From NCBI GenBank assembly GCA_009778065.1, contig WRKM01000001.1:62001-126000 (forward strand): DNA of 64,000 nucleotides, given 5' to 3'. This DNA comes from Oscillospiraceae bacterium. GTDB taxonomy: Bacteria > Bacillota > Clostridia > Oscillospirales > Ruminococcaceae. Under the pieces are notes generated by a model, which saw nothing but the letters and a program-made list of their open reading frames with translations, ran no database searches and had not been told where the DNA came from. Of this stretch, positions 9,735-54,380 are shown one piece after another (the stretch's first letter is position 1; every line of letters starts with the position of its first letter). The position numbers and the translations under genes were made by a program.

Positions 9735-9797
9735 CTGTTTATTCCGCTTCTTTATATCTGATTTACATTTGTCACTGTTAGGTTCAAAAAGAAAACC

Positions 9798-9821
9798 GCC
9801 CTTTCCTCAAAAGAAAAGGGC
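9798..9821 (-). terminator. Terminator of the zinc-ribbon gene
   Basis: Stem GCCCTTT/AAAGGGC with a 10-nt loop, followed on the minus strand by GGTTTTCTTTTTG. It lies about 125 bp after the stop at 9946. The sequence between them shows no credible gene. Confidence 0.7.
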
Positions 9822-9945
9822 AAATTTTGTTTAAGTCGTTTACAGGGGAAAACCTTATACGTTGTTTACAGCAGTCGGTAAAACCCATACACTAACCGCA
9901 AAAAGGGTCAGCGTCAGACTTCTTGCACTACAAGGATTTTTCTTG

Positions 9946-10215
9946 CTATGCTCTTTGTTTTGCGAAACACTCGCTACAATAAACGGGTCTGTCGTCACGG
10001 GGATTAAAAGGAATCTTTGCTTCGCCGCCGCAGTCAGCGCAGGTGGCAATAAAGGTTTCCTTGTTGCGTGATGCGCTTTTCTTTGCATCGCGACAGGTTT
10101 TGCAGCGTTGTGGCTCGTTTACGAAGCCTTTCTCGGAATAGAACTCTTGTTCGCCAACCGTGAAAATAAAATCTGCTCCGCAATCCTTGCATTGAAGGGT
10201 TTTGTCTTCGAACAT
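9946..10215 (-). CDS. Small double zinc-ribbon protein (zf-trcl / CxxC type)
   Basis: An 89-residue protein with two zinc-ribbon halves. The first is CKDCGADF (about residues 9-16) with CKTCRDAKK; the second is CADCGGEAKIPF with CSECFAKQ. The segment FTVGEQEFYSEKGF with NEPQRC is typical of the widespread zf-trcl family, whose function is unknown; nucleic-acid or ribosome association is a guess. GAGG lies 10 nt before the ATG. The gene follows the SigH-like sigma gene on the same strand. The 130-bp gap holds a tRNA-like sequence and no clear promoter of its own, so the two may be co-transcribed. Confidence 0.88.
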   Translation of the reverse strand: MFEDKTLQCKDCGADFIFTVGEQEFYSEKGFVNEPQRCKTCRDAKKSASRNKETFIATCADCGGEAKIPFNPRDDRPVYCSECFAKQRA

Positions 10216-10244
10216 TTTTGTGATACCTCACGTTTAAAATTTTT

Positions 10245-10308
10245 GACCTTGGACGGACTTCCACCGACACCTTTGTAAAACAACGCTCTTGAATTAAGCT
10301 ACCGGGCC
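10245..10308 (-). ncRNA. tRNA-like sequence in the 5' leader of the zinc-ribbon gene
   Basis: Read on the minus strand, 64 nt follow the tRNA plan. There is a 7-nt acceptor-like strand GGCCCGG, then TA, a D-arm (GCTT, loop AATTCAA, GAGC) and G. A shortened anticodon-like arm (TTGTTTTACAA) follows, then AGGTGTC, a T-arm-like stem GGTGG-AAGT-CCGTCC and a partly pairing 3' strand AAGGTC. Positions U8, A9, A14, A21 and G26 match the tRNA pattern. It lacks the D-loop GG, the TTC of the T-loop, a full anticodon stem and CCA, so it is not a working tRNA. It could be a decayed tRNA-Val-like copy or a selected tRNA-mimic leader. Confidence 0.5.
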
Positions 10309-10345
10309 ATATATGTAAAATATACAATCTTTAGGTTATTTTTTA

Positions 10346-10933
10346 TTAATCGCTGTTAATTATTCCTCGCTCCTTTAGTTTGCTGCGGGCGCGGGATAGA
10401 GAATTATCTACGGATTTTACGCTTATCCCCAGACGGGTAGAGATTTGCCTGTATGAAAAAGAATCAAGATACATTTCAAAAACATTAAACTCCCGCTCGG
10501 ATAAGACCTTTTTTATGCGTCCGAGAATCTCTATGCGGTTTTCTTTCTCAATAATTATATCATCTGCTCCCGGCGACAGCTCTTTAACTAAGGAGGGGTC
10601 GAACTCCTTGCTCAATATTAGCTCGCGTTTGGCTTTGCCGAGTGCGTTTTTCATTCTGTTGTCTATACAGGCGTTAGCATAACCACTAAAGCTGCCCTTT
10701 TCTTCTTCATATGTCCGTATGGCGTTCAGAAGTGCTAAAAATCCCTCAGAGATGAAATCCTCGGCGTCCTGACGATTAAACATACCGAAGCCGCTCGCCA
10801 CTTTATTGGCTTTTATAACAATTACTTTGACATAGCGCGTAATAAGCTCGGACATAAGGACGTCTTTACGGCTTTCGTCCTGCCTCGCCATTTCCAATAA
10901 CGATTCGTCGCGGAGTATTTGTATATCATCCAT
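10346..10933 (-). CDS. Sigma-70 family sigma factor, SigH-like
   Basis: A 195-residue alternative sigma factor with region 2 (RQDAEDFISEGFLALLNAIR, about residues 48-67; KGSFSGYANACIDNRMKNAL) and region 4 (LSEREFNVFEMYLDSFSYRQ, then a helix-turn-helix with ISVKSVDNSLSRARSKLKER). It lacks region 3 and most resembles the SigH/SpoEsigH group, which in Bacillus controls early sporulation and competence. It is not in the usual sigH neighbourhood, so it may be a paralogue. I place the start at ATG 10933, which has AGGTG upstream; a GTG at 10948 would add five residues without a good RBS. Confidence 0.87.
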   Translation of the reverse strand: MDDIQILRDESLLEMARQDESRKDVLMSELITRYVKVIVIKANKVASGFGMFNRQDAEDFISEGFLALLNAIRTYEEEKGSFSGYANACIDNRMKNALGKAKRELILSKEFDPSLVKELSPGADDIIIEKENRIEILGRIKKVLSEREFNVFEMYLDSFSYRQISTRLGISVKSVDNSLSRARSKLKERGIINSD

Positions 10934-10957
10934 GTCACACCTGCCCACCTAACAAAA

Positions 10958-10986
10958 AATATACCATTAAACTACGCATTTGTCAA
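10958..10986 (-). promoter_or_regulatory. Sigma-A promoter of the SigH-like gene
   Basis: Consensus TTGACA (10986-10981), 17-bp spacer and TATATT (10963-10958) on the minus strand, 25 bp before the ATG. Confidence 0.85.
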
Positions 10987-54284: not shown

Positions 54285-54380
54285 ATACATACCGAGGTGG
54301 CGTGACCCACTTACCCACATCTCCAATCATCGTTTACACGATGGGCGACGGTCGCCTGTTCCGTCCTCAGCGGTATGTAT
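54285..54380 (-). ncRNA. Structured RNA candidate, unknown class
   Basis: A perfect 10-bp closing stem (ATACATACCG at 54285-54294 with CGGTATGTAT at 54371-54380) encloses three hairpins: GTGG/CCAC (54297-54310), CATCG/CGATG (54328-54343) and GGCGA/TCGCC (54344-54356). GACGG...CCGTC offers an alternative pairing with the last. On the minus strand the block lies 6 bp past the lemA stop and is followed at once by a terminator-like hairpin. That suggests an RNA processed from or read through lemA; the plus orientation cannot be excluded. It resembles no riboswitch or housekeeping RNA I know. Confidence 0.5.

Follow-up and report, generated by a model that had tools for sequence, protein, structure and literature searches.

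A conserved tRNA-like element before the zf_Tbcl gene in Clostridia, a candidate RNase P site between cistrons

Introduction

In mitochondrial tRNA punctuation, tRNA shapes lying between genes mark the processing points. In E. coli, RNase P reportedly processes polycistronic mRNAs, in work attributed to Alifano in 1994 and to Li and Altman in 2003. The mRNA leader of the E. coli thrS operator mimics a tRNA anticodon arm for ThrRS. A further tRNA-like leader is the yjdF riboswitch (RF01764), which binds azaaromatic ligands.

According to PMC9142559, the yjdF riboswitch, like the element described here, is a tRNA-like four-way junction in a 5' leader shortly before the Shine-Dalgarno sequence, and its authors argue that it is a homologue of tRNA-Lys. 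For raiA RNA (ModT, RF03072), PMC11706538 gives comFC and the raiA gene as the usual neighbours.

The present element lies between a SigH-like sigma factor gene and a zf_Tbcl gene. It differs from yjdF in lacking a T-loop:Shine-Dalgarno pairing and in having only U8 and A9 between the acceptor and D stems, where yjdF has an extended purine-rich J1/2; no yjdF match at gathering score was obtained in the window or in ten relatives. RNase P acting between cistrons, as in E. coli, is what we propose for it, but the element is a dedicated tRNA-like cloverleaf with a leader motif, kept in many families, and its cutting is predicted. Unlike the tRNAs of mitochondrial punctuation, it is not a working tRNA and has neither anticodon nor CCA. 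It shares tRNA mimicry with the thrS operator, whereas the anticodon arm is its most variable part. raiA RNA, too, is structured and precedes zf_Tbcl in other Clostridia, but it is a 209-position family which the element does not match.

Results

The element and its locus in the window

The window is the whole 64,000-nt stretch of Oscillospiraceae DNA that was analysed. On its minus strand a SigH-like sigma gene (10948-10346) is followed after 37 nt by the tRNA-like element (10308-10244) and, 28 nt further on, by the zf_Tbcl gene (10215-9946). The features are as follows.

10958..10986, minus strand: promoter-like site TTGACA-17-TATATT with TG, 5' of the sigma gene (consensus match)
10346..10948, minus strand: SigH-like sigma factor gene, the upstream cistron (Sigma70_r2, r4_2; spore_sigH at 73 bits, below the cut-off)
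10309..10312, minus strand: A-U-A-U at N(-4) to N(-1), like a pre-tRNA leader signature
10244..10308, minus strand: tRNA-like element, positions 1-73 (Rfam tRNA alignment, covariance model, pair parse)
10302..10308, minus strand: acceptor-like 5' strand, facing 10245-10251, with 5 of 7 pairs in the window copy
10285..10299, minus strand: D arm, GCTT, 7-nt loop without GG, GAGC
10273..10283, minus strand: anticodon-like arm, 3 bp and a 5-nt loop, highly variable among relatives
10252..10268, minus strand: T arm, 5-bp stem including one U-U, 7-nt loop TGGAAGT
10245..10251, minus strand: acceptor-like 3' strand, then A73, without CCA
10226..10229, minus strand: Shine-Dalgarno-like GAGG
9946..10215, minus strand: zf_Tbcl gene, 89 aa, two CxxC...CxxC units (PF13451 + PF23477)
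9889-9914, minus strand: second terminator-like hairpin, beyond the zf_Tbcl stop codon (consensus match)
9796..9823, minus strand: terminator-like hairpin 3' of the zf_Tbcl gene (consensus match)

A consensus scan found no minus-strand promoter-like site between the sigma start and the element; the sole upstream one precedes the sigma gene. Three promoter-like sites were found in the region versus 2.4 in shuffles, and four terminator-like hairpins versus 1.4.

Read on the minus strand, the element is ATAT followed by GGCCCGG TA GCTT-AATTCAA-GAGC G TTG-TTTTA-CAA AGGT GTCGG-TGGAAGT-CCGTC CAAGGTC A. An earlier note, made from the window sequence, had described 10245..10308 as a tRNA-like leader; these are positions 1-72 in our numbering (G1 = 10308, C72 = 10245, A73 = 10244). 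Its tRNA layout was borne out, with U8, A9, a 4-bp D stem, A14, A21, G26, a short anticodon-like arm, AGGTGTC and a T arm all present, and the D-loop GG, the TTC of the T loop and the CCA are missing from the window copy as it had said. Instead of a 7-nt anticodon loop on a 5-bp stem, this copy has 3 bp and 5 nt.

ARAGORN, run over the window, called no tRNA. The Rfam tRNA model (RF00005) aligned to the window copy at full length and scored 24.9 bits, below its gathering score of 29, with an E of 0.016 over 1261 bases searched; 6 of the 10 relatives submitted passed the gathering score, the best with 40.2 bits. The Rfam scans that were run give the element no name. Membership of the tRNA family fails on the anticodon and the CCA. 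The single-sequence folding energy of the window copy was no better than that of shuffles. Taken alone, the window copy is marginal as a tRNA-like element. Elsewhere in the window, positions 54290-54375 of the minus strand matched skipping-rope RNA (RF02924) with 40.4 bits.

Conservation before zf_Tbcl genes

Relatives were gathered through the zf_Tbcl protein and not through the RNA. zf_Tbcl was present in 54 of 60 relatives. Many of the upstreams of 30 loci and of 80 named contigs showed the same element at the same place, and 31 of the 80 matched a strict element pattern. A covariance model was built from 30 upstream elements, the window copy among its seeds. In the window's genome it gave one match of 87.4 bits, which is itself a seed; the next best (29.7 bits) was tRNA-Phe.

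We followed up 92 further matches in 295 genomes of the order and 8 at class level (100 together); at order level the follow-up covered matches of about 38 bits or more, and L028 (37.1 bits). A zf_Tbcl start was found 20-72 nt downstream in 92 of the 100 matches, which bears out the association with the zinc-protein gene proposed in the earlier note. Of the remaining eight, five were genuine tRNAs, two lay at contig ends and one had the zf_Tbcl start at 192 nt. Of the 92 linked matches 86 are in the order, and 13 more copies lie at 21 to 39 nt by coordinates. The element stands directly before zf_Tbcl in at least 99 of the 295 genomes of the order and, with L028 counted, in 18 of its 26 families as sampled. 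Two cultured species are among the carriers, Ruminococcus bicirculans 80/3 (L063) and Acetanaerobacterium elongatum (L060). Conservation upstream of related zinc-ribbon genes, for which the earlier note had proposed a covariance search, was found. Neither outcome that it had named as refuting, absent conservation or an intact tRNA elsewhere with decay only here, appeared in simple form.

In 169 phylum genomes, the four matches at E 1e-10 or better, besides the window genome's own, were tRNAs by ARAGORN; weaker elements would escape this search. Four loci of the same genus (L016, L024-L026) showed by eye a plain hairpin only before zf_Tbcl, so the element is dispensable. The core pattern of the element was absent from 110 distinct upstreams, of which 27 kept a T-arm hairpin, versus 0.45 in shuffles. 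Five of these 27 were the T arm of tRNA-Gly and four were full elements that the pattern had missed; of the remaining 18, at least four (L252, L256, L262, L265) retain D-arm-like parts. The literature searched (titles and abstract openings) contained no description of this element.

Covariation and variable parts

Pairing was tested on 94 matches, 91 of them distinct and none identical to a model seed, in an alignment fitted to the model. In the 91 distinct sequences, the 17 pairs were formed in 94.6% of cells, and 168 cells showed a two-sided change. Two-sided changes occurred at 13 of the 17 pairs and 0 of 500 shuffles was as high on any measure; related genomes are not independent, and these shuffle counts are not probabilities. 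Structures slid along the alignment had at most 57.3% of cells paired. Judged by this comparison of relatives, we regard it as certain that the tRNA-like element is real.

A separate parse succeeded for 132 of 140 sequences (8 failed), and 123 distinct elements were left after 6 misparsed ones and the duplicates had been removed. The parse demanded G10, A14, a full D stem and the inner T stem, and rewarded U8, A9, T54 and A58, so near-universal counts of these are partly by construction. In the 123 elements, pairing exceeded 2000 shuffles at acceptor pairs 2:71, 4:69, 6:67 and 7:66 and at T-stem pairs 49:65 to 52:62. Acceptor pairs 5:68, 1:72 and 3:70 showed no excess over the same number of shuffles. 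Among the 132 parsed elements, all 7 acceptor pairs were formed in 16, 5 in 42, 3 or fewer in 25, and 5 or more in 87; a perfect 7-bp acceptor was present in 14 distinct elements.

The D-loop GG was found in 14 of 123 elements and a T loop opening with TTC in 16. No element had a 3' CCA (0/123), versus 99 of 120 tRNAs in the fetched loci that encode it. The segment of positions 26-48 ranged from 10 to 65 nt, so no anticodon can be what is conserved. Long insertions in the anticodon arm, of up to about 50 nt or more, were seen at L068:1052-1169, L006:1378-1475, L009:1630-1739 and L223:251-368.

The leader motif A-U-A-U

In the leader of bacterial pre-tRNAs, constraint is greatest at N(-1) to N(-4), and B. 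subtilis prefers U(-1) and A(-2) (PMC4919922); leader bases beyond -4 are of little weight according to PMC9433436. We calculated the leader information for the 123 elements. It was 0.02-0.14 bits at -20 to -5, and rose to 0.73, 0.45, 0.51 and 0.57 bits at -4 to -1 (A, T, A, T). The family majority letters were A, T, A and T in 16, 14, 14 and 16 of 20 families. On the 3' side of the element only A73-A75 were somewhat conserved (0.49, 0.21 and 0.27 bits).

The same letters were found in 125 ARAGORN tRNAs of all fetched loci (32 of them Gly), with 0.26, 0.40, 0.21 and 0.46 bits and at most 0.08 upstream; this pool is a mixture of genomes, a few of them outside the class. The motif was clear in 49 tRNAs of two f47 genomes (0.42, 0.66, 0.36 and 0.41 bits) and likewise seen in 84 tRNAs after Gly and the phylum-level loci were left out. 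The 19 tRNAs sampled from the window's genome matched at -4 (A in 12) and -3 (T in 11), while -2 held 0.02 bits and the commonest letter at -1 was C (7). The full A-T-A-T was present in 59 of 123 elements versus 21 of 120 tRNAs.

Positions -1 and 73 did not covary in a family-by-family check, so the leader motif does not simply lengthen the helix. We also rejected the idea that A-U-A-U is a -10 promoter box, since the conservation ends at -5.

raiA RNA before the same gene

raiA RNA (RF03072) was found upstream of zf_Tbcl in 11 of the 20 loci given to Rfam, out of 60 fetched. In the class sample, where 117 zf_Tbcl places were compared, it stood directly before zf_Tbcl in at least 28 of 78 raiA loci (for example L270, L284, L288 and L294), at a distance of 30-39 or 110-120 nt. 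The search that found raiA RNA in 78 of 391 genomes of the class found it in 0 of the 295 genomes of the order. raiA RNA was likewise not found in 20 genomes outside the order that have the element, some of them with only a weak match to the element, and the raiA RNA model did not match the window. No paper was found in the literature searched for the raiA motif together with zinc.

Two further observations were made at these places. In L292 and L293 (family f46) the 110-120 nt that separate raiA RNA from zf_Tbcl are taken up by a repeat-like stretch, seen by eye. L276 and L279 (family f29) have no convincing element and no raiA match before zf_Tbcl, and share a sequence there.

Origin of the element

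The simplest reading is that the element is probably an exapted tRNA gene, and descent from a tRNA gene is argued from synteny. Family f47 lies outside the order, yet five of its genomes have the element before zf_Tbcl, each with a sigma-like frame upstream (by eye). In three of these (L130, L132, L133) it lies directly 3' of tRNA-Gly(CCC), and further loci combine tRNA-Gly with a full or reduced element and zf_Tbcl. Two other Clostridia (L136, L138) have a sigma gene, tRNA-Gly, tRNA-Thr(GGU) and an EF-Tu-like frame at the same point (frames by eye). The acceptor strand GCCCATG is common to that tRNA-Thr(GGU) and to L132 and L133. Our guess from this synteny is that tRNA-Thr(GGU) was the ancestor.

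Sequence comparison did not single out a parent. Over 45 shared positions, the f47 copies scored 32.7 with Phe(GAA), 29.4 with Thr(GGU) and 28.8 with Asn and Arg(CCU); the window copy scored 30.0 with Arg(CCU) and 29.0 with Asp. The top-ranked isoacceptors in the groups were Phe, Thr, Asn, Arg or Asp. In no group did Val rank among the nearest 12 of the 26 isoacceptor sets, which gives no support to the likeness to tRNA-Val suggested in the earlier note.

Discussion

We propose that the element is an intercistronic RNase P site that would give the zf_Tbcl mRNA a 5' end shaped like a tRNA, a reading that we hold to be evenly balanced between right and wrong. The sigma factor gene, the element and zf_Tbcl would be transcribed as one RNA, in which the element would form a cloverleaf that lacks a decoding end. 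RNase P would read the A-U-A-U leader and the stacked acceptor and T arms, and would cut between U(-1) and G1. The cut would separate the message for zf_Tbcl from the sigma (or tRNA-Gly) part of the RNA. The processed mRNA would keep a base-paired tRNA-like 5' end that should guard against 5' decay and may also favour ribosome loading.

The RNase P site is favoured by the leader motif, the kept T arm and the tight layout of sigma gene and element. Among the enzymes that act on tRNAs, the flank signature points to RNase P. The distance from the sigma stop to G1 was resolved in 77 of 132 loci (33 with a first set of stop patterns, 77 with a looser one; the 37-nt gap of L001 comes from the first pattern only). 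Its median was 22 nt, with 21 loci within 10 nt, 7 overlapping and 8 above 100 nt. Since the sigma stops adjoin the element in the tight loci, there is no room for a promoter there. As for the acceptor/T-arm stack, the T arm is kept, and the acceptor has all 7 pairs in 16 of 132 copies and 5 or more in 87. Hairpins made of the acceptor and T arm alone can undergo cleavage at the canonical position (PMC11143913).

Several findings speak against the RNase P reading. The acceptor is imperfect in most copies, including the window's. Minimal RNase P substrates need neither a D stem nor an anticodon stem, yet both are conserved here. The loci L016 and L024-L026 of the same genus have, by eye, a plain hairpin in its place. 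The window genome's own tRNAs agree with the motif only at -4 and -3, which lowers the chance of an RNase P site, and the A-U-A-U flank may be partly inherited. In the reduced loci L018, L019, L021 and L036-L038, the sigma stop UGA spans the predicted cut between U(-1) and G1. The absence of the 3' RCCA, a feature of RNase P substrates, also counts against it; P RNA normally pairs with the 3' CCA of its substrate. The RCCA raises the affinity of RNase P, and reduced hairpin substrates and altered D stems suffer more frequent miscleavage (PMC4919922).

A more elaborate scheme would make this a true bacterial tRNA punctuation of mRNA. A tRNA of a sigH - tRNA-Gly - tRNA-Thr cluster would have been captured before zf_Tbcl, would have lost its decoding and charging parts while keeping the RNase P signature, and would have taken the place that raiA RNA occupies before this gene in other Clostridia; free RNase P, and so the tRNA load, would set the ratio of sigma to zf_Tbcl. 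As a whole we judge this scheme unlikely.

The element might instead be a constitutive enhancer in cis, a tRNA-like leader that binds the initiating ribosome and raises translation, like the liganded yjdF riboswitch or tRNAs grafted before the Shine-Dalgarno sequence. Its position fits, the median distance to the Shine-Dalgarno sequence being 18.5 nt (14 in the window copy). According to PMC9142559 such cis-tRNAs boost translation by a factor of 2 to 6.3, and removing the ACCA and acceptor stem costs only 25%, which would suit the poor acceptor and absent CCA here. This reading leaves the four conserved leader bases unexplained, as well as the loci that keep the T arm and have lost much of the rest, and we consider it unlikely. 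An off state of the yjdF type is not favoured either, since T-loop:Shine-Dalgarno pairing was, by energy estimate, no stronger than the mononucleotide-shuffle mean in 98 of 116 loci. Position 72 lies 23-46 nt from the start codon, and a Shine-Dalgarno-like site was present in 116 of 119 loci. A hidden Shine-Dalgarno sequence or attenuator was tried as well and no switch was found, the mean accessibility of the Shine-Dalgarno sequence being 0.42 with the element versus 0.46 without it. Ribosomal proteins and ThrRS repress translation by binding their own leaders, and the zf_Tbcl protein, a small double zinc finger, could do so too, the more as the followed-up elements accompany only its gene. 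Such autoregulation is quite unlikely in our estimate: the protein has 15 Lys/Arg against 15 Asp/Glu and so no net positive charge, and its gene is preceded by raiA RNA in other families and, within the genus, also by plain hairpins. No solved structural relative of the protein was found at E under 0.1.

Excision at both ends into a trans-acting small RNA would agree with the tRNA-like ends and with the raiA RNA that zf_Tbcl follows elsewhere, which PMC11706538 describes as abundant and trans-acting in C. difficile. We think it very unlikely, as the 3' conservation is limited to A73-A75 and matches no known 3' cutting signal. The earlier note had offered two readings, a decayed tRNA gene and a tRNA mimic that controls the gene. 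For decay without function, consensus parts are indeed missing, the score of the window copy is marginal, and descent from a tRNA gene is probable from the synteny. The compensatory changes contradict it, and the spread over the families of the order also speaks against it; the element is not decaying, and a functionless relic is scarcely credible. The mimic reading holds in that the element is tRNA-like, conserved and tied to the zinc-protein gene, but not for sensing through an anticodon, that arm being variable.

If the RNase P proposal is right, this mRNA element of tRNA descent would be widespread and usually present in one copy, missed by tRNA finders and unnamed by the Rfam scans that were run. 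The proposal predicts a single 5' end at G1. It would join RNase P to a SigH-like sigma factor and to a conserved zinc protein whose gene neighbours raiA RNA elsewhere, a trio unlinked in the literature searched. The full cloverleaf, the T arm with a short acceptor and the plain hairpin would then show a path from tRNA gene to mRNA element.
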